The translations under genes and the position numbers were made by a program. A model generated the notes under the pieces. That model was not told the origin of the DNA. It saw nothing but the letters and a program-made list of their open reading frames with translations, and ran no database searches. From positions 1-44,514 of the forward strand of contig CALAMO010000008.1 of the NCBI GenBank assembly GCA_937925855.1: DNA of 44,514 nt, read 5' to 3'. Positions 28,048-44,436 of the stretch are shown in pieces. Source of the stretch: an uncultured Thiotrichaceae bacterium. GTDB lineage: Bacteria > Pseudomonadota > Gammaproteobacteria > Thiotrichales > Thiotrichaceae. Numbering within the stretch: position 1 is the stretch's first letter; each line of letters begins with the position of its first letter.

Positions 28048-29877
28048 ATGCGCTTAAAAACTTTTTTCGTACTGCTGCTCGCAGGAATCTGGGGAATCGG
28101 CAGCTGGTGGTGGTACACCTGCAAGATTAAAAGCTACTGCGCGGAAAGCTCACCCTTGTCCGCCCTGATTGGCAGCGGCCTGCAGACCGCAACTGATAAC
28201 TATAATGAGCTAATGGGCCAAGCTGGCACTGATAGGATCGGAGAATCCAATGCCGCCACAAGCCAAGACGATAGCGCAGCAAGCATCACAGCAGAGACCG
28301 CACCCACCGACCACAGCAGCCCCGCTCCGACCACAGCCACCAGCATCGATGATACAGCGACCACAACAGATAATAGTGGTACACCAAGTAATAGTGGTAC
28401 AGCAAGCGCTGAAACCAGTACAACCGAAACCCGTGAGACCGCCGCGTCGACTGATGCGACAGCAGCGACCGCGCCGACGACCACCGTGCAAACCGACAGC
28501 AACGCACAAACTGACGCCAGCGCAGCCGAGACAGCAACGGCAGACACAGCGGCCACTACTCCCACCGATGACAAGGCCTCGCAGAACACAACGGGCACCG
28601 ACACCGCAGAGGGCGACCAGGACAAAGTAGCAGACACCGAGGCTGCCACTAGCCAAAATACAAACGAAGCAGAAGCCACAACCATCGACCCAACACCCCC
28701 TAGCCAAACCGACACAACAGACAGCGACGGCGATGGCTTGAGCGATGCCCTGGAACAAAGACTAGCGACTAATCCGAATAGCCCAGATTCAGATGGCGAT
28801 GGCCTGCATGATCAGGCTGAAGTCGGCGACAATCCCACGCAACCCCGCGATAGCGATAACGATGGAATTATCGACGCCAAGGACACAGACGATGATAACG
28901 ACGGCGACCTCACTAGCGATGAAGCCGCTGATCCTGATCAAAATGGCCTGCCCGATGACGCCCGCGATGATAACGCGGATGGCACACCGGATTACCTGGA
29001 TGCGACCACGAACCAGGAAAGCCGCGATGACGACGGCGACGGCCTATCGAATAGCGTAGAAAAGCGCATCGGCACCAACCCGACGCTCACCGATTCTGAT
29101 GGTGATGGCCTATCGGACCGATACGAATCAGCAGACCAGAAGGACAGTGACGGCGACGGCACGATTGATGCCCTAGACCCCGACGATGACGATGACGGCA
29201 TTATGACCGTGATGGAAAGTGCTGATCCCAATGGAGATGGTAATCCAGATGATGCTGTTGACAGCAATGATAATAATAAACCCGATTACCTCGACACCGA
29301 TAACACGCCGTCTGAACTACCCAGCGAACGCGAAATTCAACAGGGCGTAACTAGCAGCACAGATTCAGATGCAAACGCTACGACAGTCGGCGACAGCAGC
29401 AATACGGAACAGTCCGCAGTACCTATACCAGAAGACACTGCGGAACCACAAGACGGCAGCGATACGGCGACCGCTTCAAGTGAGGCAGCACCGCAAGCGC
29501 CTACTAGCGAAGCAGCCACTAACACAGAACCCGTCAACATCGAATCCCGCCAGCTCTATTTTTCATTTCGCTCCACTGAGCTGGAACTGGAAGACAACGT
29601 AGCGCAGTACGTAGACCAAGTCATCAAGCAGCTCAATGATCATCCGAATGTCAAAATTAAATTAACCGGCCATACTGACAGCGTTGGTAGGGGTGGGCCT
29701 AACCGAGAGCTTGGACTGAAACGTGCCAGGCAGGTGCGCGATATGCTGGTCAAACGCGGCGCGCCCCGTGAGCAAATTGAAGTCGATTCAGCCGGTGAGG
29801 GCGAACCTATCGCCGATAACCAAACCGAAACCGGGCGCAGGAAAAACCGCCGGGTCGAATTGGAGCAAATTCAATGA
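28048..29877 (+). CDS. OmpA-family protein with thrombospondin type 3 calcium-binding repeats
   Basis: A 609-residue envelope protein. An N-terminal hydrophobic helix (FFVLLLAGIWGIGSWWW, 6-22) acts as a signal anchor; no lipobox Cys follows cleanly. A Thr/Ala/Asp-rich linker (about 60-222) leads to about eight Asp-rich TSP3 units (225-412, pattern DSDGDGLSD), then a second linker. An OmpA C-terminal peptidoglycan-binding domain follows (about 503-609: LTGHTDSVG ... NRELGLKRARQVRDML ... GRRKNRRVE), with the Asp and Arg that hold diaminopimelate. It has no outer-membrane barrel, so it probably links the inner membrane to the cell wall through a calcium-stiffened stalk. The next gene overlaps by ATGA. 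Confidence 0.92.
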   Translation: MRLKTFFVLLLAGIWGIGSWWWYTCKIKSYCAESSPLSALIGSGLQTATDNYNELMGQAGTDRIGESNAATSQDDSAASITAETAPTDHSSPAPTTATSIDDTATTTDNSGTPSNSGTASAETSTTETRETAASTDATAATAPTTTVQTDSNAQTDASAAETATADTAATTPTDDKASQNTTGTDTAEGDQDKVADTEAATSQNTNEAEATTIDPTPPSQTDTTDSDGDGLSDALEQRLATNPNSPDSDGDGLHDQAEVGDNPTQPRDSDNDGIIDAKDTDDDNDGDLTSDEAADPDQNGLPDDARDDNADGTPDYLDATTNQESRDDDGDGLSNSVEKRIGTNPTLTDSDGDGLSDRYESADQKDSDGDGTIDALDPDDDDDGIMTVMESADPNGDGNPDDAVDSNDNNKPDYLDTDNTPSELPSEREIQQGVTSSTDSDANATTVGDSSNTEQSAVPIPEDTAEPQDGSDTATASSEAAPQAPTSEAATNTEPVNIESRQLYFSFRSTELELEDNVAQYVDQVIKQLNDHPNVKIKLTGHTDSVGRGGPNRELGLKRARQVRDMLVKRGAPREQIEVDSAGEGEPIADNQTETGRRKNRRVELEQIQ

Positions 29878-30164: not shown

Positions 30165-30962
30165 GTGAATAACGATTACAGCTTCAGTGTTGCCAGCCTT
30201 GAAATCATTATTGCATTGAGCGCTGCTTTTGTTATGGGTGCCCTACTATGCTTTCTGCTACGTCTGCTAGGCCGACTATTTCGGGGCAAACCAGCCACTG
30301 CAGAGCTTCAGCAGGCGAACACTAAGCAAGTGCATCTGGAGCGGACAACACCGGACAAAGCGTCTCCATACCCGACAAACGAAGACAGCGGCAGCGAGCC
30401 TTTCCAGGCCGCATTCCCAGAAATGCGTCCCGAGCTACCAGTGGTCGAACGCCAACCCCTACCCGAACCCATACCTGCCCCGGTTAACCAGCTGATGGGC
30501 AGCAGCACCTACGAAGCAGATATTGATACCCTGCTGCGCCGGGGTAGCAGCGGTAATCGCCATACCGCTTTGCCCCAGCATAATAGAAACCACGACCCCG
30601 ACGCCTCGTTCGCCAGCCGCGCTCGCGCATCGCTGACGCAGACCGCCCCGGAGCCGGAGCCGCCCGCATCGCCCAGCCATGATTTACCAGTTTCAGCAGA
30701 TGAAACGGTTGACGACTTGAAAAAGCTAGAAGGCATTGGCCCAAACATTGAACAACTGCTCAATCAATACGGCATCTACAGCTACGCTCGTCTAGCGACG
30801 CTGAGCCGTGACCAACTGCGTGATGTCTTAACGGCGGGAGGCAATGAATTTTTAATGCATGACCCCAAGTCCTGGCCTTATCAGGCCGAGCTGGCCGCCA
30901 AGCAAAACTGGGAGCGTTTACGGGAGTATCAGGAGTTTCTCATTGAAGGGCGGAGCAGCTAA
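30165..30962 (+). CDS. Membrane-anchored helix-hairpin-helix (H3TH-like) protein
   Basis: A 265-residue protein with one N-terminal membrane helix (LEIIIALSAAFVMGALLCFLLRLLG, about 9-33), a Pro/Glu-rich disordered linker (40-180) and a C-terminal domain. That domain has the helix-hairpin-helix signature DDLKKLEGIGPNIEQLLNQY followed by SYARLATLSRDQLRDVL. Such domains (COG3743-like, related to the H3TH motif of 5' nucleases) can bind DNA but are also found in envelope-associated proteins, and no nuclease residues are seen. It starts with GTG behind AAGGAG. It shares the direction and cassette of the OmpA/TSP3 gene, and its stop overlaps the converging BY-kinase stop by 4 bp. Confidence 0.83.
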   Translation: MNNDYSFSVASLEIIIALSAAFVMGALLCFLLRLLGRLFRGKPATAELQQANTKQVHLERTTPDKASPYPTNEDSGSEPFQAAFPEMRPELPVVERQPLPEPIPAPVNQLMGSSTYEADIDTLLRRGSSGNRHTALPQHNRNHDPDASFASRARASLTQTAPEPEPPASPSHDLPVSADETVDDLKKLEGIGPNIEQLLNQYGIYSYARLATLSRDQLRDVLTAGGNEFLMHDPKSWPYQAELAAKQNWERLREYQEFLIEGRSS

Positions 30963-33229
30963 CGCGCCAGATTTAAGCCGCCTCTCGGCTGGTCTATAAC
31001 TGACACCTCGTCCCCAACCGGACGCCGCTGGTAACGCTGATAATAGGCATCGGCCACTGCCGCCTTGCGTGATTTCAGCACCAAAAACCCCAAGACATTA
31101 TCCTTAGCACGGCGCAGCCGGGTCAGCGTATCAGTTAACTTGGCAGGATCAATGCGCGCTTCATCAGTCACCAACACAGTACCATCAGCATAAGCCGTCA
31201 GTAGTATGGGATCAGCAAACCCGGTCACAGGTGGCGCATCGATAATCACCACATCAAAATACTGGCGCGACATTTTGATTAAACTCAGCATGCGCTGACA
31301 GGCCAGCGCCTCCACTGGATCAAGATTTATTTTGCCTGCCGTGATCACATAAATATTACTGGCATCACTGTAGGACTGCGTTGCATGCACTAATTCAATA
31401 TCACCGTAAAGGTACTCACCTAACCCAACGTGGTTATTCAGCTCCATTTTCTTATGAATCGTCGGCCTGCGCAGATCAGCATCGATCAGCAAAACTTTAT
31501 GGCCGAGCTGGGCATTACTCAATGCAAGATTAACCACGGACGTTGACTTCCCCACGGCAGGATCAATGCTAGTCACCAGTACAATGCGCGAACCGGGCGG
31601 GCGCAAGGCAAACTTCAGATTCGTCGCCGCCATACGGTAGGCCTCTGCGACTGCTGAGCCAACATCACGGAGTGCAGCCAGCGGCAAAGCCGCCTGACGC
31701 GCACGCCGCACATAGGGCACTGTCCCCAATACCGGCAAACCACTATACCGTTCCAATTCAGCCGCAGGGGACAGCGTATTACGCACGCAAGCACGCAGCA
31801 GCACAAATGCTGCCGTTAATAACAAGCCAGCCAATAAACCCGTCAGTATATTCGCTAGTTTATTAGGTCGGATACTTTGAGTGGGTGGCTGCGCAAAATC
31901 AATAACGCTGACCGTAGGCGTACTGGCACCCGCCGCAACACTCACAGCGGTATGACGCTGCAATAAGCTCTCATACTGTTGGCGTCTCGTTTCTAGCTCA
32001 CGCTGTAGCGCCGCATCTGCCATACGGCGCCCCGGTTCATCCGCTGCTGAGACTTCGAGCTCCCGATAATCCGCCAGCTCAGCACGTAGGCGGACAACCT
32101 CTGCGCCCGCCACACTGCTTTCTGCCTGCAAAGTATCGGCTCTCGCTTGTTGCAGCGCGTTCGTCTCAGTCGCCAGCTTGCGCTTGAGCTTTTTGATTTC
32201 AAGCGCAAGCTGCTGCATATCGGGATAAGCCGGCTTAAAAATCTTCAGCTGCGTCAGATACTGCGTTTCCAGGGCATTTAATTGTTGTTTTAGGGGGGCT
32301 AACTGTGGATGTGTTAGTAATAGAGTCTCTGGACTACTCTCGCTCTGTTGTAGCTTGCTACTGATTTCCTCCGCCTTTTGCTCAGCCGCAAGCAGTGCGA
32401 CATTCAGCTCAATCCGCCTTTCCTCCGCCCTCTTCTGTACATCACTAGTCGCCAGCATCCCAGCAGTAACCCGCACAGACTCGGTCAGCGCTTCTTCACT
32501 CGCCACCATACGATCACGCGCTTCCAACACCTCGCGCTGCAGCGATGTCTGGGCCTTTATTTTCACCTGCTGCTTGGCCCGTTGCTCAGCCACAAAGGTT
32601 GCAACCAAGGCATTAACAATTTCAGCCGACAGCAATGCATCCGGCGCTTCATAAGAGACCTGCACCAAATACGTGCGCTCGATAGGTGCCACTTGCAGCT
32701 GCGCAAGAAATCGATCGATTCCATCGACGGTAGACGATGGCGACTTAGTCTTCTGCACCAACCCGGCAGGCAGCCAATCAAATAACAGGGTTCTAAGCGG
32801 CGAACTAAAATCATGCGCAAACAAGCGCTTTTCCAACTTTAACTGTGCAATGATTCGCTGCGCCAACTCACGACGCTTGAGCTGTTCGTACTGCGTATGG
32901 ATGGCGGGGTTAAATGCACCGGCATTGCTTGTGATGACCTGCCCACCAGAGTCAGTCTCAAGTGCACTGGGCGCTTCGATTTGGAGTGTAGTTACCGCCC
33001 GAAAGTACGGCGTCATCAACCCATTTAACAACAGGCCTAGTAACGCGCCCAACAATGCCACCGCGACAAACCATTTTTTCTGCTGCCAGAAAAGCTGCCA
33101 CACTACACGCAATGACAACCGCTCTCCATCTGTAGCAGACGCACTCAAGCTAGCGTTTGCAGCAGTGCTCACCCCCATAAAACCAGAGGTAACAGGATCA
33201 GACGGCGAGTCATTATGAAAATTACGCAT
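30959..33229 (-). CDS. Wzz/GNVR-type chain-length protein fused to BY-kinase
   Basis: A 756-residue polysaccharide co-polymerase with a C-terminal tyrosine autokinase, the class (Wzc/ExoP/EpsB-like) that controls export and length of exopolysaccharide. Membrane helices lie at about 52-72 and 480-500, with a long periplasmic coiled-coil region between. The cytoplasmic kinase has Walker A SIDPAVGKST, Walker A' LLIDADLRRP and Walker B VVIIDAPP. A short tyrosine cluster (AYYQRY) lies near the C-terminus. The Walker A has Val where many relatives have Glu. A TAAGGT site lies about 7 nt upstream of the ATG. No glycosyltransferase, Wza or Wzx/Wzy gene is in the window, so it is an orphan here. Confidence 0.92.
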   Translation of the reverse strand: MRNFHNDSPSDPVTSGFMGVSTAANASLSASATDGERLSLRVVWQLFWQQKKWFVAVALLGALLGLLLNGLMTPYFRAVTTLQIEAPSALETDSGGQVITSNAGAFNPAIHTQYEQLKRRELAQRIIAQLKLEKRLFAHDFSSPLRTLLFDWLPAGLVQKTKSPSSTVDGIDRFLAQLQVAPIERTYLVQVSYEAPDALLSAEIVNALVATFVAEQRAKQQVKIKAQTSLQREVLEARDRMVASEEALTESVRVTAGMLATSDVQKRAEERRIELNVALLAAEQKAEEISSKLQQSESSPETLLLTHPQLAPLKQQLNALETQYLTQLKIFKPAYPDMQQLALEIKKLKRKLATETNALQQARADTLQAESSVAGAEVVRLRAELADYRELEVSAADEPGRRMADAALQRELETRRQQYESLLQRHTAVSVAAGASTPTVSVIDFAQPPTQSIRPNKLANILTGLLAGLLLTAAFVLLRACVRNTLSPAAELERYSGLPVLGTVPYVRRARQAALPLAALRDVGSAVAEAYRMAATNLKFALRPPGSRIVLVTSIDPAVGKSTSVVNLALSNAQLGHKVLLIDADLRRPTIHKKMELNNHVGLGEYLYGDIELVHATQSYSDASNIYVITAGKINLDPVEALACQRMLSLIKMSRQYFDVVIIDAPPVTGFADPILLTAYADGTVLVTDEARIDPAKLTDTLTRLRRAKDNVLGFLVLKSRKAAVADAYYQRYQRRPVGDEVSVIDQPRGGLNLAR

Positions 33230-34039
33230 AATCTACCTTAAATTCAACCATGGGGCGGACACGCATGTAATATTCCCCAATAATACAAACGAATGAAAAG
33301 CCAAGCTGTCTTACAACAGTGAAAATGCAGGCATTATTCAGGATGTTGCAGCATGATTAGCGGTGACGCAATGGTGCTCCTGCGCACCTCTACAGTTTTA
33401 AGGACAGCCGGTAAATAATGCTGATTTTTAAGCATTTTAATAAGACAACGGAATAATAATACGGTACAAAAAAAGCCTACATGACAGCCCAACCCTAATG
33501 AAAGCGCAGTTCAGCACAAGTCACCTAGCAACCCATTACTTAAAAGACTGGCTTTATAAGTTATTCACGCTGTGAGACTTTAAAAAGTAATAAATGTGGC
33601 ATTTAATTTTAGGTGAATTACCCGTATGATAGAAATCATTAAGAAATAAAATGCAGTATTAATTGAGTTTAAGCTAAGCAATAGAGGATAACGTTATAGA
33701 TCAAAGCCGGTTCAAACTTTTTTACCGACCTCATCTGACTATTAATTTCCATTTGTCTTATGAAACACTCCATTCAAGCCGCAAAGCAAAGAATAAATCT
33801 AATGACAACACTAGATTTAACTTGCATCAAACACATGAATAAAGTTTGCCCGTGCATAAAAAACATTTATTTAAACCAGAACATCCATTTTATAACTTCT
33901 GTCCGCTTGCGCTCAGCTGCACTGGACACGCACTGACACGCTCCACCTGGAGCCAACAGCGGCGGCTGCGTGACCAACGGCTATGCACGCTAAGCCCGAA
34001 CCCAGTGCGCAATGAGTATCATTGGGATGACTGCTCTTT
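33230..34039. other. AT-rich 810-bp divergent intergenic region
   Basis: The longest non-coding gap in the window, between the BY-kinase (minus) and the pseudo-asparagine synthetase (plus). Positions 33230-33900 are clearly richer in A/T than the flanks. Elements seen are a 6-bp inverted repeat AATGCT/AGCATT at 33417-33436, a 10-bp palindrome ATAACGTTAT at 33688-33697, and many TAAT/TTAA tracts suitable for promoters or H-NS-like binding. Open frames at 33846-34052 (TTG start) and 33835 (about 33 codons) have no family resemblance and are not called as genes. Promoters for both neighbours are expected here. Confidence 0.6.
33688..33697. promoter_or_regulatory. Perfect 10-bp palindrome in the divergent region
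   Basis: ATAACGTTAT is a perfect palindrome in the middle of the AT-rich gap and could be a regulator half-site pair. Palindromes this short occur by chance in AT-rich DNA, so this is only a pointer. Confidence 0.2.
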
Positions 34040-36049
34040 ATGCCAAACATAAACGGGCTGCTGCACTACCCTCAGTCTGGGCGACTGACACAGGCCATCC
34101 AGGGCATGAATCAGGCACTCAACCCAAGCAGCCCCGCCGAACAGGCACAATGGCAAGACACGCAACGCGGTATCGCACTCGGCCACGGCCTGCTGCGACA
34201 TGGATCAAACTGCGACCAACAGCCCATCCCCTCTGACGACGGGCGCTACTGTATGCTGCTGAACGGTCAAATTTATAATCAGCATCAGCTTCAGCAGGCG
34301 CTAGAACGCGATACTATTTGCGACGGGCCTCGCCCCACCGATCGCAACATCCTGCTTGCGGGCTTTGCGCACTGGGGGATTGAGGCGATGCTAAAACGCA
34401 TCAGCGGCATGTTCGCCATTGCGTTGTGGGATCGTCAGCAGCAGCTACTTTACCTGATGCGTGACCGGGTCGGTGAAAAGCCCTTGTATTATGGTCAGCT
34501 CGGTCAGTGCTTCGCTTTCAGTTCTGAATTAGCAGCACTGCGCAACCTGCCCCTATTCCAAGCATCTGTGGATCGCTGCGCCTTAGACACCTATCTGCAT
34601 TACGGTTATATTCCAGCCCCACAATCCATCTATCGAGGTATCCATAAACTTTCTCCCGGCAGCGTGCTTACCCTAGACTATAAAACTTACTGTCAACACA
34701 AGTCGCTACAAGCGGCCATTACCCAGCGGCAATGGTGGTCATTTGTTCACACCGCACAGCAGGCGCAGCGCCGACTGATCACGGATGAACAAGACGCTAA
34801 AAACCGCCTGCGCCAACAGCTGCAGCACAGCGTGAGTCAACAGAGCATAACGAGTACTAATGTCGGCACCTTTCTGTCCGGCGGCATTGCTTCAACGACA
34901 GTGTTAAACCAACTGTGCAAAGTGAATGACGCCCAAAATGTTCACACCTTTACTCTCAGTCCAGCGCAATCTAATTCAACACAATACGCCGACAGCACCG
35001 CACAGCAGGCTGTAGCACTGGCTCAACACTTCGGCACCGTGCATGAAACTATTACACTGAATGCGGCAGCAGCGCAGGCAGTGGTCCCACAGTTGGCACA
35101 GGTACACGCCGAACCCTGTGCCTCTGTTGCGCAGATCTCAACCCAGTTACTGGCCCAACATGCCGGGCAACAGGTCAATGTGGCGTTATCTGGCATTGCC
35201 GGTAACGAACTATTTGCCGGCCACAGTCGCTACCTGCACAGTCCGGCGATTTGGGCTAAAGTTCGTCACCTACCGCTTTTCTTGCGCAATCGCCTTGCCC
35301 AATTACTCATCCGCGTCAACACCCAACACTGGGATTTTTTAGCCGAACAGCTGAACAAACGCCAGCTCCGTGGCGCCCATTTGCACAAGCTAGGGTACAG
35401 TTTGCATAACTGTCGCACGCTGGAAGACTTTTTTAATCGGTTTGGCCTGCAACTCTCGAAAGCAGATTCATGGGTCATTGGCGGTAACCCGCAAGCAGAT
35501 AGCTCACCCCAAACACTGCCCCCACAGGCTATCGACTTTCAGAGCGTGTACCTATCAGATGACATCTGGCATAGTTTCACTGCGGAGGCAGAACATGCCA
35601 TGATGCTAAGCGACTCCACTCACCACCTACCGAATAGCATGTTGTGCACAGTGGATCGTGCCACCATGGCGGTGGGGCTGGAAATGCGCACACCCCTACT
35701 GGATCACCAGCTGATAAAACTCGCTTGGCGCCTACCCCTAACTATGAAAATCCATCATGGTCAAGGCAAACATATCCTGCGTCAACTGCTGTCTGAAGAC
35801 ATCCCCATTGAGCTGCTAGCACAGCCCAAGCAGGCCTCTCATTTACCACTGAACTACTGGCTACGCAATGAGCTGCGCGATTGGGCAGAGGACTTACTGG
35901 ATGAACACCGTTTGCGGCGTGAGGGCTATCTGCATACCGCTAAGGTACGCAACAGCTGGCAGCAGTTTTTACGTGGGCAGCACAACAACCAAAAGCTGCT
36001 CTGGCATGTGCTGATGTTTCAGACATGGCAGGAACGCTGGCTCACGTAG
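34040..36049 (+). CDS. Asparagine synthetase-like pseudoenzyme (glutaminase and synthetase sites both altered)
   Basis: A full-length (669 aa) AsnB-type two-domain protein. The fold is well kept: NGQIYN (75-80), FAIALWD...RDRVGEKPLYY (125-151), VDRATMAVGLEMR and TPLLDHQLIKLAWRLP (538-566), and a typical C-terminus. The active sites are not. The N-terminal nucleophile (family MCGI) reads MPNI. The PP-motif SGGLDS reads SGGIAS (Asp to Ala284). DEPFAD reads AEPCAS (357-362). SGDGGDE reads SGIAGNE (384-390). The C-terminal KxGF reads KQAS. It therefore probably cannot hydrolyse glutamine or adenylate a substrate, and may act as a binding or scaffold protein. An in-frame stop at 34028-34030 rules out a longer N-terminus. 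It diverges from the BY-kinase and converges on the FimX-like gene. Confidence 0.88.
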   Translation: MPNINGLLHYPQSGRLTQAIQGMNQALNPSSPAEQAQWQDTQRGIALGHGLLRHGSNCDQQPIPSDDGRYCMLLNGQIYNQHQLQQALERDTICDGPRPTDRNILLAGFAHWGIEAMLKRISGMFAIALWDRQQQLLYLMRDRVGEKPLYYGQLGQCFAFSSELAALRNLPLFQASVDRCALDTYLHYGYIPAPQSIYRGIHKLSPGSVLTLDYKTYCQHKSLQAAITQRQWWSFVHTAQQAQRRLITDEQDAKNRLRQQLQHSVSQQSITSTNVGTFLSGGIASTTVLNQLCKVNDAQNVHTFTLSPAQSNSTQYADSTAQQAVALAQHFGTVHETITLNAAAAQAVVPQLAQVHAEPCASVAQISTQLLAQHAGQQVNVALSGIAGNELFAGHSRYLHSPAIWAKVRHLPLFLRNRLAQLLIRVNTQHWDFLAEQLNKRQLRGAHLHKLGYSLHNCRTLEDFFNRFGLQLSKADSWVIGGNPQADSSPQTLPPQAIDFQSVYLSDDIWHSFTAEAEHAMMLSDSTHHLPNSMLCTVDRATMAVGLEMRTPLLDHQLIKLAWRLPLTMKIHHGQGKHILRQLLSEDIPIELLAQPKQASHLPLNYWLRNELRDWAEDLLDEHRLRREGYLHTAKVRNSWQQFLRGQHNNQKLLWHVLMFQTWQERWLT

Positions 36050-36086: not shown

Positions 36087-37754
36087 CTATTGGGACTGTC
36101 CTTGCCTAGCCCGTAGCCGCGCTAACAGCGGCCCCTGCAAATACGCGGCTGAGGTTGCACACAGCAGATTCAACACCTCAATATGTTGCACCCCACTTAC
36201 CACCGTAACCACGCCGCGCCGGCTCATTTGTTGTAACAACGTCTGCAATGTAGCGGGTATTCCAGTCTCTGTATTAATGGCATGAGCATGACTGGCGTGC
36301 GCCTCAACCAGACAACCTTTGAAGGGCGCCAACAGCGCCAGCAATGGCGCATCCACATGGTGTACACCTTCGAACATCAGCGTTACGCCTGCAGCCTGGT
36401 ACCGCGCAAGCAAGGGCTGCACCCTTTTTGGGTGAGACAGACAGACGCGGCTATCAACACCCAACACCAGCTGATTGCTGAGCGCAGCCTGCTGCTTCAG
36501 CAACGTTAATAGCGATGCAACCTGCCCGGCATCTGTCAATGCCCAGCGCCCTAAACTCACCACCACCTGCTGTAAGGCAGGTGCTTCTTTTTGGGCGGAA
36601 AGGTAATGCAACGTAGCCCTTAGATTACGGCGGTCCAGCTGAAAGCGGGCGCCCTCATCCGGCGCATTCGCCACGAGCCAGGCATAATCTAGGCGGGTTG
36701 TGGGGGTATCTTGTGCCCAGGGCCGTGCCCAGAGTAACGCGGGTCGGTCTACGCCCTGCAAATTCAACAACTCGTTAAACATTGGCTGTAGCTGCTGGAG
36801 CGCAGCACTATACGATTTGGCAGGCAGGGAATCCATGCCCAGAGCCTGATGGTGTATGTGCTGGGGCAGCTGACAGGCGCTGACTGACGGCTCTTGCCAA
36901 GGGTTAGGCCGCTCCATTGCACCCGCCCTCGCTACTCGTTTCCGCTGTTCGGCAGGCACCAGGGGTGATACATGCAGGCGCAAGCAACGCTGACCGTGAT
37001 AAACTGCGGGTATACAACGAATCTCTGCTCGAAAGAGCGCGTTATCTTGGTTGCGCACGGCCTTTAACGTTAGCAGCAGTTTATTTGAGGGTCTGTTATG
37101 CTGCTCAGCTTCCCGGCTAAACGCAGTGAAAATAGCACGGTGCTCGAACTGCACCAGATTAAGCACATCCATTGCCTGCGCTTCTGCCGCAGAATAAAAG
37201 CCAAACAGGCTGCGATAGGCGACATTAACGTGTAAGTGTTGATTAGCCGCTAGATAGGCAATCGCTTCACGACTATAGTCCACCAGCCATCGGCTGCGTA
37301 GCTCAGCGATACGCAATAAATGTTTACACTGGCGGAACTTAGCTTTTAACTGCACATAGGCTAATAAATAGTCCAGCTGTTGCCTCAGCTGAGTACTATC
37401 ACCCGTTGCAATCGTACAAACCTCAGCATATGCCGCCATGCCCTTATTAGGCAGTTTCAGCGGTGTCAACGCCTGCCATGCCTGATCAGTGAGACACACC
37501 AGAACACAGTCATACGCCAGACGTTGAAGCAGACGCAACAAGGCATGCTGCTGCCGCCTTGACACCACATCATTGTCTGCCATCGCATAAAACAACAGTA
37601 GTGGGGAGCGCGCCAACAGCGTTTTCAGTGCGGACAGATCCCCCGCCAGCTCAATATCAATATCAGAATGAGCGGCACGTAGCGCAAGCAGCAGCCGTTG
37701 CTGCTGATGTGTGTTCTGTTGAATAACAACACAAGACAGAGGATGCTCATTCAT
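36087..37754 (-). CDS. FimX-like protein: degenerate receiver - PAS - degenerate EAL
   Basis: A 555-residue protein. Residues 1-130 look like a receiver fold with no phosphoacceptor (LLLFYA at the expected strand). A PAS domain (about 155-265) has the segment SREAIAYLAANQHLHVNVAYRSLFGF, typical of FimX-type proteins. The C-terminal part (about 325-550) follows the EAL fold but without catalytic residues: the EAL motif is absent, DDFG reads FEGV, and the closing motifs read VSGVQHIEVL and LQGPLLARLR (family AEGVET... and QGYLFS). No GGDEF domain lies between PAS and EAL, unlike Pseudomonas FimX. It is most likely a c-di-GMP or protein-interaction module for pili or polysaccharide control. Encoded 115 bp after a PilZ-type gene, probably the same operon. 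Confidence 0.8.
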   Translation of the reverse strand: MNEHPLSCVVIQQNTHQQQRLLLALRAAHSDIDIELAGDLSALKTLLARSPLLLFYAMADNDVVSRRQQHALLRLLQRLAYDCVLVCLTDQAWQALTPLKLPNKGMAAYAEVCTIATGDSTQLRQQLDYLLAYVQLKAKFRQCKHLLRIAELRSRWLVDYSREAIAYLAANQHLHVNVAYRSLFGFYSAAEAQAMDVLNLVQFEHRAIFTAFSREAEQHNRPSNKLLLTLKAVRNQDNALFRAEIRCIPAVYHGQRCLRLHVSPLVPAEQRKRVARAGAMERPNPWQEPSVSACQLPQHIHHQALGMDSLPAKSYSAALQQLQPMFNELLNLQGVDRPALLWARPWAQDTPTTRLDYAWLVANAPDEGARFQLDRRNLRATLHYLSAQKEAPALQQVVVSLGRWALTDAGQVASLLTLLKQQAALSNQLVLGVDSRVCLSHPKRVQPLLARYQAAGVTLMFEGVHHVDAPLLALLAPFKGCLVEAHASHAHAINTETGIPATLQTLLQQMSRRGVVTVVSGVQHIEVLNLLCATSAAYLQGPLLARLRARQGQSQ

Positions 37755-37869: not shown

Positions 37870-39564
37870 CTATAAAACGTCCCATAAATTCTCAAACTCA
37901 TCATCACCGTTGGCACTCTCTTCAATCTGCGTGCTGTCCAGTACTTTAAAGCTAAAATACGCGAAGGCGCCGAGGCACTCATCCAACGCACCGAGCACGA
38001 TATAAGCTTCGCGCTCATCAAAGTTAACGTTCAATTCATCACCCGGCCTAAACACATAGGCCGGCAAGATTAAAGAAGACTCCTCACGAATACCTTCAAT
38101 ACGCGGCAGCATCAAACCATCTTGGGTTAACACACAGCCAGGGTCACGATTCCGAATCGCGAGTACCTTCAGCAGTTTAACCTGCACCGATAACAGCTCA
38201 ACCCCACAGGCAAGGCCGGCCTTTGGCACATACTCCATCCATTTAACCACGCCAACCATCCAGGAGTTATCGGCCTGTTTCATATCACGCAAACCGGCCA
38301 GTTCCCCGACTCTAACATCCGACGTTTCCCGCTCATTCCAATATAAGCCGTACCCACCCACACTATTATTTCGGGTCATCCAGATGCTCACTCCGCCCTC
38401 ATCAATGCTGTCATCATCGCTCGGCACCTCATGGTCCTCTGCGGCGACATCAACAGAATAGGTATCACCGGAGAACGCATTGTTAAACAGCAGATCCTCT
38501 TCCTGCATTTCAGCCGCCGGTTTTTTCTGATTGGCATTATTAAGCACCTGTAAAACATTGCCCATGCCCATAGCAGCCGAGATTGTACTATTAGACTCAA
38601 AACGATTGTGCTGGCGATTCCTGATCGTGGTCAGATGGTAGACCATCCGTTTCGCCAGATTGCGGCTCAGTCCATTCGTCAGAATCAGAGCGGACGAATT
38701 TTCGTAGGCAATTTCATCAATGAAGCTGTCAATTTTCATTATCAATTGACGCAGATTAAAGACCCGCACGGTAGGTGAATGTGGCAAGTCACCATAGGGC
38801 ATGGTCACCGCGGGCTCATCATTATTCAGGACAGCCGCATGCACAAAATCACCCAGTCGTTCTTCGTCGGCCAATTCTCGGCTAATGCTAATCAGATGGC
38901 TATTTTCCTGCACGTAACGAGCAATGCGGAGCGCCTCCTCTTGGCGCACGCTATACGGCTTAAATAACGCCAAGACGTTGACCTGGATATAACGCGACTC
39001 AATGCTGCACGGTTTATTTTTACCATCATTAAACTCCAACACATCCATGCCGCGCTCGCTGGCTAACAAATACATATGATGGATGTCGTGCCACACGGTA
39101 TCGCGGGTTTGAATATAGACAGAATAAGTGCTCAACAAATATTGACCGAGATAGTCAATCACCCGATAAATCGCAATCTGTAGCGCACGCTTGCGACCAC
39201 TGTCTTTATTCAGCATATCCAGCGCAGCCAGCTGATAGGTACCCGCAAATTCCAGCAGCAAAGACTGATTCAGATCAGAGATTTTCTGGCCGCGTGCCGG
39301 TAGGGGAAAAGCCTGATAAGACAGATGGCGTTGCAGGTTACCAACAAGCAAGTCCACCTTGGGGCGCAGATACTCCGCAATGCGTACCCGCACCAGAGGC
39401 GGCACCATACGCCGATTAAAATCAACGAGGCCATAAAAAATTCGCCGGGTCGTCTCCCCAAAATCCGTCGTCGATAAGGATTCTACCCACTTCTTTGCTT
39501 TTGCTTCTGAGAGGGGAATTTCATAGCTTGCTAGCTGTTGCTTATCTGCTTGCGCTGCTTCCAT
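37870..39564 (-). CDS. Large PilZ-type c-di-GMP-binding protein
   Basis: A 564-residue cytoplasmic protein with a helical N-terminal half (about 20-260) followed by PilZ-like features. An RxxxR element (RQHNR, 317-321) and an NxSxxG element (N399, S401, G404 in NNSVGGYGLYW) are the two c-di-GMP-contact motifs of PilZ domains. After them comes a beta-barrel-like stretch (VRVGELAGL ... WMVGVVKWM ... ACGVELL). The two motifs lie 78 residues apart, rather than the usual 20-30, with an acidic insert between (352-390). The family name is not certain. Its place directly upstream of a FimX-like gene supports c-di-GMP signalling to pili or exopolysaccharide. GCAGG lies 9 nt before the ATG. Confidence 0.7.
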   Translation of the reverse strand: MEAAQADKQQLASYEIPLSEAKAKKWVESLSTTDFGETTRRIFYGLVDFNRRMVPPLVRVRIAEYLRPKVDLLVGNLQRHLSYQAFPLPARGQKISDLNQSLLLEFAGTYQLAALDMLNKDSGRKRALQIAIYRVIDYLGQYLLSTYSVYIQTRDTVWHDIHHMYLLASERGMDVLEFNDGKNKPCSIESRYIQVNVLALFKPYSVRQEEALRIARYVQENSHLISISRELADEERLGDFVHAAVLNNDEPAVTMPYGDLPHSPTVRVFNLRQLIMKIDSFIDEIAYENSSALILTNGLSRNLAKRMVYHLTTIRNRQHNRFESNSTISAAMGMGNVLQVLNNANQKKPAAEMQEEDLLFNNAFSGDTYSVDVAAEDHEVPSDDDSIDEGGVSIWMTRNNSVGGYGLYWNERETSDVRVGELAGLRDMKQADNSWMVGVVKWMEYVPKAGLACGVELLSVQVKLLKVLAIRNRDPGCVLTQDGLMLPRIEGIREESSLILPAYVFRPGDELNVNFDEREAYIVLGALDECLGAFAYFSFKVLDSTQIEESANGDDEFENLWDVL

Positions 39565-40553: not shown

Positions 40554-41513
40554 ATGAGCAATGAGTTCTACAGTGATGCTGCTTTCACCGCACCCAGCCC
40601 CTATGGCCTCCACCAGGAGCCCATGTATGCGGGCGCGCTCAGCCTATTTCGCCGCCAATACAGCCGGGATTTAAGCCAGGCCGACATTGCGGTACTGGGC
40701 ATTCCATTTGATACCGCAACCAGCAATCGGCCCGGCGCTCGCTTTGGGCCACGCGCCGTGCGGGCGGCCTCCACTCAGCTGTCGTGGGAACGGCACTGGC
40801 CATGGGACTTTGATGCATTCTCTGAGCTGGCGGTGGTCGATTATGGCGATGTGTTTTTTGATCATGGTCGCCTTGCTGATGCGCCACAGGCCATTGCCGA
40901 TACGGCCCGCCACATTCTACAGACCGACACGGCCTTGCTCAGCCTTGGCGGTGATCACTTCGTCACTTACCCACTGCTACAAGCGCATGCAGAACACCAC
41001 GGGCCACTCTCACTCATCCACTTTGATGCGCATTCCGATACTTGGCATGATGCCAACGATACGGGCCGCGTTGATCATGGCACCATGTTCTACCACGCTC
41101 AGCGCGAGGGCTTGGTCGACCCACAGCGTTCGGTACAAATCGGCCTGCGCACAACCAATGATGAAACCTTTGGCTTTAATATCATCAATGCCCGCCAGGC
41201 CTGCGCAACTGATGCGGCCACGCTGGGCCAGCAAATCAAAGACATCGTCGCTGATAATAAAGTGTACCTCACCTTCGACATTGACTGCTTGGATCCGTCC
41301 TGCGCCCCCGGCACCGGCACGCCGGTTTGTGGCGGACTGTCCAGCCGCCATGCCTTGGACATATTGTGGGAGCTACGCGGCATTAACCTAGTGGGCATGG
41401 ACTTGGTGGAGGTGGCACCGGCTTATGACGTAGCGGAGATCACAGCGCTGGCTGGGGCTAATTTAGCGCTGGAATTTATCCACCTGTTTGGACACGCCCG
41501 CCGCTCAGCTTGA
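40554..41513 (+). CDS. speB: Agmatinase / ureohydrolase family protein
   Basis: A 319-residue ureohydrolase with the complete two-manganese site: GGDHFVTYP, HFDAHSDTW and TFDIDCLDPSCAPGTGTPV. Agmatinase splits agmatine to putrescine and urea. The order, length and partners fit that reaction, though related guanidino-acid hydrolases cannot be excluded by sequence alone. AGGA lies about 10 nt before the ATG. It leads a three-gene unit with a gamma-glutamylpolyamine-synthetase-like gene and a putrescine aminotransferase, which together would convert agmatine-derived putrescine. Confidence 0.88.
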   Translation: MSNEFYSDAAFTAPSPYGLHQEPMYAGALSLFRRQYSRDLSQADIAVLGIPFDTATSNRPGARFGPRAVRAASTQLSWERHWPWDFDAFSELAVVDYGDVFFDHGRLADAPQAIADTARHILQTDTALLSLGGDHFVTYPLLQAHAEHHGPLSLIHFDAHSDTWHDANDTGRVDHGTMFYHAQREGLVDPQRSVQIGLRTTNDETFGFNIINARQACATDAATLGQQIKDIVADNKVYLTFDIDCLDPSCAPGTGTPVCGGLSSRHALDILWELRGINLVGMDLVEVAPAYDVAEITALAGANLALEFIHLFGHARRSA

Positions 41514-41537
41514 CATTATGTCCCACCCTCCACAAAA

Positions 41538-41547
41538 TGTGATCACT
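41538..41547. promoter_or_regulatory. Second TGTGATCAC element upstream of the glutamine-synthetase-like gene
   Basis: TGTGATCACT in the 66-bp gap before ATG 41580 matches nine of ten bases of the palindrome at 40435-40444. This suggests that the second gene has its own regulated promoter bound by the same GntR regulator. Confidence 0.5.
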
Positions 41548-41579
41548 AAATACCAACTAGCACACTGACTCGGGGCACT

Positions 41580-42980
41580 ATGAATACACCTGCGGCTGAT
41601 TTACCGGAAGCCATTTCGTTTCGTATCGATGCCAATACTGATCCAAAAGCGCAGCTCAAGACGCTGATCCGCGAGCACCGGATTGATGAGGTGGAGTGTG
41701 TTATCGCCGATATTCACGGCATTACTCGCGGTAAGGCCATGCCCGCCGCTAAATTTGCCGATATGAAACCGGCCTTTCTACCCTTTAGTATTTTCTTCCA
41801 AAGCATCACCGGCCAATATTTCGAATTTGATTCCGACGAATACAACACCGAGATTGATATTCAGCTCATTCCCGATTTATCCACGCTGCGTAACCTGCCC
41901 TGGGCGCGCTCGCCTAGCCTAATGGTGATTCATGACCTGCATTACCCCAGCGGCCAGCCGGTGGCCTGCGCCCCGCGCAACGTGTTAAAACGCATTCTGG
42001 CGCGCTATGCCGCACAAAACTGGCAGCCCATTGTCGCCCCGGAACTGGAATTTTACCTGACCGCACGTAACACCAACCCAGACATACCGCTGGAACCACC
42101 GGTGGGTCGCTCCGGGCGCCAGAGTGTGGGTCGCCAATCTTATTCTATAATGGCGATTGATGAGTATGAGAATATTATCGAAGACATCTACCGTTTTGCT
42201 GAAGCACAGGGGCTGGAAATTGAAACCATTATCCAAGAAGGCGGCCCGGCACAGCTAGAAATTAACATGATGCATGGCGACCCACTTCAGATGGCCGATA
42301 ATGTCTTTATCTTTAAACGCCTGATCCGTGAGGCAGCGCTGCGCCATGACTGTTATGCCACGTTTATGGCTAAACCAATGGAAGGCCAGCCCGGCAGCGC
42401 CATGCATATCCATCAGAGCATCGTCGACTGCCACACCGGGCAGAATATTTTCTCCGATGAACGCGGTGAAACCACCGAACTGTTCACGCATTTTATCGGC
42501 GGCCAGCAGCACTACCTGGAAGCGGCCACCTGCATTCTTGCACCCTACGTCAACTCCTATCGTCGCTTTATGCCCGATGATGCCGCGCCGATTAATCTGG
42601 AATGGTCGTTTGATAATCGTTCTGCTGGGCTGCGCGTCCCGCACAGTGCGCCTAATGCGCGCCGCGTAGAAAACCGCGTCGCCGGTATTGACTGCAATCC
42701 TTATCTCGCGCTGGCGGCAAGTTTGGCCTGCGGCTACCTCGGGATGATGGAAAAAATTGAGCCAACGCGCGCCTTTAAGGGCGATGCTTATGAAGCAGCC
42801 TATGGCGTGCCGCGCGGGATTCAGGAAGCACTGCTTGCCTTTGAGCAGTGCACGCCGCTGCAAGAGCTGCTGGGCATGCAGTTCTCTGCTATCTATCGGG
42901 CGCTGAAAGCCCATGAATTTGATGAATACATGAAAGTGGTCAGCCCGTGGGAACGCGAACACCTCCTACTCACGGTCTGA
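41580..42980 (+). CDS. Glutamine synthetase family, probable gamma-glutamylpolyamine synthetase
   Basis: A 466-residue type I glutamine-synthetase-fold enzyme. The N-terminal beta-Grasp (CVIADIHGITRGKAMPAAKF) and the catalytic domain are both intact. Landmarks are PELEFYL, QLEINMMHGDPLQMADN, AKPMEGQPGSAMHIHQS, MPDDAAPINLEWSFDNRSAGLRVP and NRVAGIDCNPYLA. The latch region typical of true GlnA is altered, and the protein resembles SpuI/PuuA enzymes that couple glutamate to putrescine or other polyamines using ATP. Placement between agmatinase and putrescine aminotransferase supports this. The exact amine is not determined. Confidence 0.88.
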   Translation: MNTPAADLPEAISFRIDANTDPKAQLKTLIREHRIDEVECVIADIHGITRGKAMPAAKFADMKPAFLPFSIFFQSITGQYFEFDSDEYNTEIDIQLIPDLSTLRNLPWARSPSLMVIHDLHYPSGQPVACAPRNVLKRILARYAAQNWQPIVAPELEFYLTARNTNPDIPLEPPVGRSGRQSVGRQSYSIMAIDEYENIIEDIYRFAEAQGLEIETIIQEGGPAQLEINMMHGDPLQMADNVFIFKRLIREAALRHDCYATFMAKPMEGQPGSAMHIHQSIVDCHTGQNIFSDERGETTELFTHFIGGQQHYLEAATCILAPYVNSYRRFMPDDAAPINLEWSFDNRSAGLRVPHSAPNARRVENRVAGIDCNPYLALAASLACGYLGMMEKIEPTRAFKGDAYEAAYGVPRGIQEALLAFEQCTPLQELLGMQFSAIYRALKAHEFDEYMKVVSPWEREHLLLTV

Positions 42981-43022
42981 ACTAACTATAAGGCTACCTG
43001 TGCCTGAAACACAACTGCTACG

Positions 43023-43027
43023 AGGAG
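43023..43027 (+). promoter_or_regulatory. AGGAG ribosome-binding site fixing the aminotransferase start
   Basis: AGGAG lies eight bases before ATG 43036, and no such site precedes the in-frame GTG at 43000. This decides the start of the aminotransferase gene. Confidence 0.7.
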
Positions 43028-43035
43028 AAACCAAC

Positions 43036-44436
43036 ATGACTGATATTAGCGCTGAGCATACACCAATGCGCTCTGATGATTATCAGGCCCAGGATGCTGC
43101 CCATCACCTGCACCCTTTCACTGATACCAAGGCGCTGAACGCCAAAGGCGCGCGCATTATCACCAAAGGTGAGGGCGTTTATATCTATGATGCTGACGGT
43201 AATAAATACCTCGATGGCATGGCCGGGCTGTGGTGTATGGCCGTTGGCTACAGCCAACAAAGCATTGTTGATGCGGTGGCGGCGCAGATGCAGGAACTGC
43301 CCTACTACAACACCTTTTTCCAAACCTCACATCCCCCGGCGTTAAAACTGGCCGAACGGCTGGCTAAAGTCACGCCCTCACACATTAATCACGTCTTCTT
43401 CACCGGCTCCGGCTCTGAATCTAACGATACCGTGGTGCGGATAGTGCGCCACTACTGGGCCACCAAGGGCCAGCCAGATAAGAAAACCATTATCTCACGT
43501 AAAAACGCCTACCACGGCTCTACCATGGCAGGTGCTAGCCTCGGCGGCATGAAGGACATGCATGAACAGGGCGACCTACCCATCCCTGGCATAGTGCACA
43601 TTAACCAGCCCTATTGGTATGCAGAAGGTGGCGACCACGACCCGGAAAGCTTTGGTCTGGCCCGCGCCCAGGAATTGGAACAAAAAATTCTAGCGCTAGG
43701 TGCGGATAACGTTGCCGCCTTCATCGGTGAACCGGTACAAGGGGCCGGGGGTGTCATCATCCCACCCGCCAGCTACTGGCCAGAAATTCAGCGCATCTGC
43801 CATAAATACGACATCCTGCTAATTGCAGATGAAGTCATTACCGGCTTTGGCCGAACCGGTGAATGGTTTGCCTCCACCTACTATGGCATTACTCCCGACA
43901 TTATTTCTATCGCTAAGGCAGTCACCTCCGGCTATCTCCCACTGGGCGGGGTCTTATTGGGCGAGCGCGTGGCTAATGTGCTGATTAATGAAGGCGGTGA
44001 GCTACAGCATGGCTATACCTACTCCGGCCACCCCGCCTCCTGCGCCGCTGCCCTAGCGGTGCTGGACATTATGGAACAGCAGGATATTCCCAATTACATT
44101 AAACACGACATTGGCCCTTATATGCAGGAACGCTGGCGGGCACTGGGTGAACACCCGCTGGTGGGCGAGGCGCGCATGATTGGCCTGATGGGCGCCTTGG
44201 AACTCACACCGGATAAAGCCACGCGCGCGCCGTTTACGGTCAAACAAGGCACGGTCGGCATGCTGTGCCGCGAACACTGTTTGCATCATGGGCTCGTCAT
44301 GCGGGCCACCCGGGATACTATGATAGTCTCGCCTCCAATGGTGATCACTCATGCTGAAGTGGATGAGCTAATCGCCAAGGCCAGCCAGGCGCTAGATGCA
44401 ACTTATGCCGAGGCCGAAGCCTTGGGCTATTTATAA
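43036..44436 (+). CDS. spuC: Putrescine aminotransferase (class III), SpuC-like
   Basis: A 466-residue PLP-dependent class III aminotransferase. The PLP lysine is Lys294 in SIAKAVTSGYLPLG, with Asp265 in LLIADEVITGFGRTG and the phosphate-binding GSGSESNDT loop. The N-terminal block HHLHPFTDTKALNAKGARI and the YHGSTMAGASLGG segment are those of SpuC-type enzymes, which transfer the putrescine amino group to pyruvate (yielding 4-aminobutanal and alanine). The longer frame to GTG 43000 lacks a ribosome-binding site and is not used. It is the third gene of the putrescine cassette. The last 78 bp of the window after it contain nothing I can identify. Confidence 0.92.
   Translation: MTDISAEHTPMRSDDYQAQDAAHHLHPFTDTKALNAKGARIITKGEGVYIYDADGNKYLDGMAGLWCMAVGYSQQSIVDAVAAQMQELPYYNTFFQTSHPPALKLAERLAKVTPSHINHVFFTGSGSESNDTVVRIVRHYWATKGQPDKKTIISRKNAYHGSTMAGASLGGMKDMHEQGDLPIPGIVHINQPYWYAEGGDHDPESFGLARAQELEQKILALGADNVAAFIGEPVQGAGGVIIPPASYWPEIQRICHKYDILLIADEVITGFGRTGEWFASTYYGITPDIISIAKAVTSGYLPLGGVLLGERVANVLINEGGELQHGYTYSGHPASCAAALAVLDIMEQQDIPNYIKHDIGPYMQERWRALGEHPLVGEARMIGLMGALELTPDKATRAPFTVKQGTVGMLCREHCLHHGLVMRATRDTMIVSPPMVITHAEVDELIAKASQALDATYAEAEALGYL

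Follow-up and report, generated by a model that had tools for sequence, protein, structure and literature searches.

A probable pseudoenzyme of the asparagine synthetase family, altered at both active sites, at a reduced exopolysaccharide locus of an uncultured Thiotrichaceae bacterium

In this study, we asked why a gene whose product resembles asparagine synthetase and is altered at both active sites should be kept in an uncultured Thiotrichaceae bacterium. The gene lies in a 44,514-nt stretch of DNA (hereafter the window). As the initial annotation had described, its frame is fully open, running uninterrupted from an ATG start to the stop over 669 codons with zero in-frame stops. Its GC content by codon position falls inside the range of six neighbouring genes, and a promoter and terminator scan at the locus gave 3 and 2 sites, respectively, against 3.4 and 3.1 expected. 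The gene and its parts are as follows.

34040..36049, plus strand: ORF of the putative pseudo-amidotransferase, asparagine-synthetase-like, both active sites altered, 669 aa
34043..34684, plus strand: N-terminal class II glutaminase (GATase) region, residues 2-215 (bounds chosen by us); C2P, R51L and E77Q, with N75 and D101 intact
34043..34045, plus strand: codon 2, nucleophile Cys to Pro
34787..35314, plus strand: synthetase (ATP-pyrophosphatase) core, residues 250-425 (bounds chosen by us); weakest constraint on the window branch, omega 0.24
34889..34891, plus strand: codon 284, PP-loop Asp (SGGxDS) to Ala
35195..35206, plus strand: SGDxxDE codons 386-389, D386 to Ile and D389 to Asn
35597..36037, plus strand: C-terminal helical part, residues 520-666; branch omega 0.107, a constraint resembling that of intact enzymes
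35828..35839, plus strand: PKxGF motif, codons 597-600; Lys597 intact, G599 to Ala, F600 to Ser

Pfam matched GATase_6/GATase_7 to residues 38-168 of the window protein and the whole Asn_synthase profile to residues 257-665 (1.1e-73). The top NCBIfam model was TIGR03108, at 331 bits against a curated cut-off of 816.9, whereas TIGR01536 (asparagine synthase, glutamine-hydrolysing) scored 287 bits, above its cut-off of 267, so automatic annotation could call the protein an asparagine synthase. An AlphaFold2 model computed from 27 sequences (the window protein and 26 intact relatives) had a mean pLDDT of 85.4 and a pTM of 0.88, and its top PDB matches in Foldseek were TsnB9 (7YLZ), human and E. 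coli (1CT9) asparagine synthetase, beta-lactam synthetase and carbapenam synthetase. The fold is predicted to be intact, and the domains and the model together would place the protein in the AsnB family. It resembles asparagine synthase in its TIGR01536 score and predicted fold; however, it lacks five of 12 essential residues, and the name would mislead on function, a curated model here labelling as asparagine synthase a protein without the nucleophile.

The essential residues were taken from AsnH of L. casei (LtsA/AsnB family), for which passages of PMC3885529 describe 12 residues essential to its two activities and C2S and D265N mutants that yielded no glutamate; they were mapped onto the window protein by alignment and spacing. 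The glutamine pocket is not that of an active glutamine-dependent amidotransferase, having C2P, R51L and E77Q while N75 and D101 remain, and neither is the PP-loop/synthetase site, which has D284A and D389N while S280, S285, G385, K577 and K597 remain. Further substitutions are D357A, D362S, D386I and F600S; R51 is changed to L, NGE to NGQ and DTE to DRN. All five motif changes listed in the initial annotation were confirmed (MCGI to MPNI, SGGxDS to SGGIAS, DEPFAD to AEPCAS, SGDxxDE to SGIAGNE and PKxGF to PKQAS), but its statement that every active-site motif is altered goes too far, as seven of the 12 essential residues, including K597 of PKxGF, are still there. Given that the nucleophile Cys, the Gln-pocket Arg and Glu, the PP-loop Asp and a second synthetase-site Asp are gone, we strongly infer from the sequence that both glutaminase and synthetase catalysis have been lost.

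The family otherwise keeps these residues. In the main alignment (110 rows, less three altered copies), C2, D284, K577, K597 and F600 were present in 107 out of 107 rows; none of the 12 essential residues was missing in 102 of these rows and one was missing in five. All 12 were present in each of 26 gammaproteobacterial rows from a class-wide search. The resulting 133 comparison rows include three exact repeats (130 distinct) and are the best-scoring search matches, not a random sample of the family. A protein scan of the genome contigs had returned zero relatives; the later alignment scan gave 578 confirmed loci, the best 80 of which were named. Among the 107 rows, 95 alignment columns reach at least 97% invariance; there the window copy retains 71 residues (75%) and differs at 24.

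Pseudoenzymes are a known kind of protein, and the AsnB family has members that lack the glutaminase Cys: beta-lactam and carbapenam synthetases do without it and have a working synthetase site. Structures of these two enzymes (1JGT and 1Q15) share the AsnB fold and match the window model. The window protein might likewise be a new enzyme, its leftover ATP/PPi-binding residues and remodelled pocket catalysing another reaction. Besides the structural match, the persistence of S280, G281, G282, S285, E358, G385, D539, K577 and K597 speaks for this idea; it counts against a retained pseudoenzyme in leaving room for residual or altered chemistry. Unlike the two synthetases, however, the window protein is altered at both sites: its PP-loop Asp and D389 are gone, its synthetase core is its least constrained part (window branch omega 0.24 vs 0.07 in the background), K577 is also missing in two other altered copies (L012 and L028, see below), and in the passages of PMC3885529 the PP-loop Asp mutant of AsnH formed no glutamate. 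We consider a new enzyme very improbable.

The surroundings of the gene were compared with those in relatives of its own genus, in particular genomes G004 and G006.

30959..33229, minus strand: BY-kinase/chain-length regulator, full-length, Walker motifs intact by inspection; collinear with the G004/G006 kinase, which lies at the cluster's far end
33230..34039, no strand: 810-bp gap, where G004 and G006 have three cluster genes (FemAB/GNAT-like, glycosyltransferase, deacetylase)
36087..37754, minus strand: FimX-like gene, EAL domain; collinear with G004 and G006, where seven cluster genes separate it from the amidotransferase
37870..39564, minus strand: 564-aa protein, no Pfam or NCBIfam match; adjoins the FimX-like gene in the window and the seven genus relatives examined

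These coordinates and strands agree with the initial description of a BY-kinase gene opposite and a FimX-like gene converging. G004 and G006 share one arrangement, in which the 564-aa gene is followed by the FimX-like gene, seven cluster genes (GINT1-like, three glycosyltransferases, O-antigen-ligase/Wzy-like, flippase and one without a match), the amidotransferase, and then a deacetylase, a glycosyltransferase, a FemAB/GNAT-like gene and the BY-kinase. Their amidotransferases (L002 and L003) have intact motifs and lie inside this complete exopolysaccharide cluster. Order and relative orientation are the same in the window for the 564-aa gene, the FimX-like gene, the altered amidotransferase and the BY-kinase, with seven genes absent on one side of the amidotransferase and three on the other; no remnant of the three was recognisable in the gap (best E 0.35). 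Most of the cluster is absent around the window gene, and we infer that it was lost here rather than gained elsewhere. The nearest relatives, with their intact motifs and collinear cluster, show the ancestor of the window protein to have been a glutamine-dependent amidotransferase of an exopolysaccharide cluster.

The own-genus survey covered seven relatives and left out G002. In G005 and G007 the 564-aa and FimX-like genes are followed by a short kinase match (274 and 322 aa) and a GOGAT gene; in these loci (L235 and L236), which have no cluster, the kinase match still adjoins the FimX-like gene, as if the regulators were used without the cluster. In G003 the FimX match is in two pieces, and the 8.6 kb beyond it contain no G004-type cluster gene; in G001 and G008 the locus stops at contig ends, G008 still having the first cluster gene. 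The FimX-like protein of the window and its orthologues in G004 and G006 (L033 and L034) match the EAL domain and show no obvious EAL motif by eye; from its sequence it looks like a receptor, not a phosphodiesterase. L004, the cluster-type protein of G007, has exactly the sequence of its counterpart in Thiolinea disciformis DSM 14473 (L112), and the genus of the window is probably Thiolinea in the wide sense, in which T. eikelboomii is placed too according to passages of PMC8570282.

Besides the window copy, Cys and PP-loop Asp are both missing only in L012 (genome G016) and L028 (G068) among the 110 aligned rows. These two belong to another genus of the same family, probably Thiothrix. Each lacks seven of the 12 essential residues, K577 included, and L028 naturally carries C2S and a PP-loop D-to-N change, the counterparts of the AsnH mutations C2S and D265N. 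At the 95 invariant columns L012 differs at 21 and L028 at 13, against 0-4 in 17 intact family rows. Changed invariant positions are common to the window copy and L012 in 13 cases (5.3 expected, hypergeometric p = 5e-5) and to the window copy and L028 in eight (3.3 expected, p 0.003). Since many altered positions recur in two other genomes, random sequencing error was rejected as their cause.

A tree and dN/dS had both been suggested as checks in the initial annotation. In an IQ-TREE phylogeny of 31 proteins, the window copy joined L002 and L003, the intact proteins from its genus (100/98), and L012 paired with L028 (100/100) beside the intact L022 and L023 of the sister genus; a single origin of the three altered copies was rejected in a constrained tree (p-AU 0.0025). 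The window branch is long (2.0) and the letter make-up of the sequence unusual, so its placement carries some risk, which counts against the reading of a retained pseudoenzyme. Synteny agrees with the tree, as G004 and G006, which hold L002 and L003, have the window-type gene order. The loss of catalytic residues arose twice, independently. The initial annotation had suggested a search for orthologues with the same substitutions and neighbours; homologues with overlapping substitutions do exist in G016 and G068, and their neighbours differ, both copies adjoining a lyase-like gene instead of the BY-kinase and FimX-like pair. This gene encodes a 471-aa protein weakly like the pectate lyase PelZ (L039:6582-7994 and L040:7656-9065), which is 73% identical between the two loci, compared with 92-98% for flanking genes.

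The same locus was examined in 16 genomes of the sister genus (L212-L223, L039, L040, L042 and L043), where its states range from complete to empty. G069 and G071 have the full cluster, one glycosyltransferase of G071 being matched in pieces. In G016 and G068 most of the cluster is gone, and a full-length altered amidotransferase and the lyase-like gene are present, with a glycosyltransferase in G016 as well. G067 has the lyase-like gene, the glycosyltransferase and a 141-codon amidotransferase remnant beginning MGG, as in G016. That glycosyltransferase alone, the commonest survivor, is found in G022, G065 (in three pieces), G072, G073, G074, G075, G076 and G077, and zero cluster genes were found in the stretch examined in G009, G066 and G070. 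The first codons of the G067 remnant (L218:3451-3876) overlap the 3' end of the glycosyltransferase gene, which may be why the remnant's end is still readable.

Erosion of the cluster thus looks frequent in the sister genus, where a full-length altered amidotransferase is the exception (2 out of 16 genomes). This opens a different explanation, namely that the window gene is dying: the cluster is under deletion, catalysis went first, and the ORF is caught at a late, still-open stage. The range from full cluster to the G067 remnant, in a sister species, and the absence of an AsnB match at the locus in 11 of the 16 genomes fit this explanation and weigh against a retained pseudoenzyme, and so, on the side of a dying gene, do gaps of 27 codons in G016 and of 41 and 16 codons in G068 relative to an intact relative, as well as the truncated kinases of G005 and G007 in the window's own genus. 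Selection was followed with a custom-written branch model (eight sequences, 575 codons; the best of four starts equalled the likelihood of an earlier single start).

On the window branch omega was 0.141 (2dlnL vs omega 1: 37.9), with a background of 0.115. On the stem of L012 and L028 it was 0.637 and indistinguishable from 1 (2dlnL 0.3), a point for a dying gene; however, both daughter branches returned to low values that reject 1 (L012, 0.139, 2dlnL 43.9; L028, 0.156, 2dlnL 21.0), suggesting relaxation at the time of the change and renewed constraint thereafter. Pairwise omega between L012 and L028 was 0.155 at dS 1.40 (2dlnL vs omega 1: 274); in two intact pairs omega was roughly half as large (0.074 and 0.080). 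L012 and L028 differ more at synonymous sites than seven flanking genes do (0.27-0.95), and the island may therefore predate the split of the genomes or have recombined. GC at codon positions 1 and 3 is lower in L012 than in L028, which speaks against retention, yet it is like that of the direct neighbours. For the window copy, pairwise dS to its relatives has reached saturation (9.25 or unbounded), and selection on it was therefore judged by the branch model. The relatives compared included no close orthologue of the window copy, so that its omega averages in an enzymatic past that is inseparable from the present, again a point against retention.

Constraint is uneven along the protein. By domain, the window branch gave omega 0.119 for the GATase region (2dlnL 18.9), 0.107 for the C-terminal part (2dlnL 13.9) and 0.243 for the synthetase core (2dlnL 4.5), where neutrality is rejected weakly and the background is 0.07; in L028 neutrality of the synthetase domain was not rejected (2dlnL 2.6). 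Both synthetase values argue against a retained pseudoenzyme. The synthetase core shows the lowest conservation of any part in the L012/L028 comparison (57% identity vs 75 and 76% elsewhere), but the highest in the intact pairs L022/L023 and L002/L003 (89 and 86%). The C-terminal part of the window protein is 52-55% identical to four intact relatives, as conserved as in four between-lineage intact pairs (51-57%; two closer pairs, 67 and 73%). Mean synthetase/GATase identity ratios were 0.84 for the window copy, 0.93 for L012 and 0.95 for L028, with 0.81-0.83 in the lowest intact rows. The GATase and synthetase domains of the window copy have diverged further than those of intact pairs, so general relaxation accounts for some of the change.

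The frame itself argues in the same direction as the omega values. Neutral mutation of an intact relative produced a mean of 8.5 stops at 80% identity and 10.1 at 76%, and 0 of 400 runs at either level stayed free of stops, whereas the window frame is open despite 13 gaps in the protein alignment to L002. Taken with the branch omega and the 71 invariant residues kept, this supports the earlier claim, in that the frame and many non-catalytic residues appear to be kept by selection. The companion claim, of change gathered at ligand contacts, is true as a tendency: of the 95 invariant columns 24 are changed, 13 of them shared with one independent case, but the two catalytic domains are also divergent overall. 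The initial annotation had also named intact orthologues, with this copy alone decayed, as evidence that would speak against selection; intact relatives do occupy the locus, but the window copy has not simply decayed. A dying gene is, in our judgement, unlikely.

A further possibility is that the window protein serves as the inactive partner subunit of a remaining paralogue. Its genome (G000), like G016 and G068, holds another asparagine-synthetase-like gene (in G000 a 607-codon open frame, C6), the best other TIGR03108 match in the three genomes (331-342 bits). This paralogue is just ~30% identical, however, and such a gene occurs in each of the 11 searched genomes (325-343 bits), including those with an intact enzyme and G005, which has no strong cluster copy; with so wide a distribution it does not track the altered copies, and we find a partnership of this kind extremely improbable. 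No cluster-type copy of at least 510 bits (TIGR03108) exists in G000, G016 or G068, so the altered copy is not a spare beside an active enzyme. Loss of all exopolysaccharide capacity was considered and rejected, as G000 has Wza-like, sugar-transferase, Wzy-like and BY-kinase genes elsewhere.

We conclude that the window protein is probably a pseudoenzyme kept for a catalysis-independent role, most plausibly binding or scaffolding in the control of cell-surface polysaccharide. In the proposed course of events, the cluster would have been mostly lost around the gene, leaving the BY-kinase, the amidotransferase and the FimX-like gene; glutaminase and synthetase catalysis would have gone, while purifying selection went on acting on the fold, on the helical C-terminal part and on much of the GATase core. 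With catalysis lost and the fold selected, the protein most likely acts by binding and not by chemistry, and it may be a ligand-binding or scaffolding partner. Its retention beside two likely regulators makes the BY-kinase and the FimX-like protein the first candidate partners in the window; the copies of the sister genus, which would have taken the same route independently, lie beside the lyase-like gene instead. Selection for a non-enzymatic role, as the initial annotation had put it, agrees with the open frame, the many selected non-catalytic residues, the lost catalytic ones and the repetition of the loss, less the part of the change that is relaxation. A more specific version is a rather doubtful possibility: that the amidotransferase twice became a non-catalytic regulator as its cluster was dismantled, and in the window takes part in signalling together with the BY-kinase and the FimX-like protein by binding a metabolite or a partner, its GATase and C-terminal parts being the working surfaces.

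Among known systems, the XrtA/PEP-CTERM exopolysaccharide amidotransferase (TIGR03108) has the same domain order, and the cluster of the intact relatives resembles its setting in having glycosyltransferases, a flippase, a deacetylase, a FemAB-like protein and a BY-kinase. However, eight intact cluster-type copies in other genomes score 510-580 bits, none of the 11 searched genomes exceeds the cut-off, and the window protein lies lower still, with both active sites altered and most of the cluster absent. The role of the intact ancestor may have been that of WbpS-like amidotransferases (P. aeruginosa; Rubrivivax RGS1_10407), that is, uronamide formation or EPS modification. According to passages of PMC3684757, the RGS1_10407 product resembles WbpS, which makes uronamides, and its mutation led in one background to partly planktonic growth; WbpS is described there as catalytically active, in contrast to the window protein. 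AsnH, too, is an active enzyme, stimulated by cell-wall extract as acceptor. For the intact relatives, the most likely reaction is amidation of a polysaccharide precursor or a linked acid.

In the literature searched, with most subscription journals and all preprints outside the search, we found no AsnB member altered in both sites, under selection and arising twice after cluster loss, and no paper with both 'asparagine synthetase' and 'pseudoenzyme'; passages of PMC3885529 and PMC9140057 mention no such doubly altered, selected member. The locus offers a replicated natural experiment in the passage from enzyme to pseudoenzyme, with intact, inactive-but-selected and eroded states at one site, repeated in a second genus, and suggests that cluster loss can free a protein for a new role.

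Elsewhere in the window, the genes for an OmpA protein with TSP3 repeats (28048-29877) and a 265-aa protein without a Pfam match (30165-30962) sit between the Tgt/rhodanese genes and the BY-kinase. Agmatinase, glutamine-synthetase-like and aminotransferase genes together with a GntR regulator occupy 40554-44436, which is probably a polyamine-use locus.
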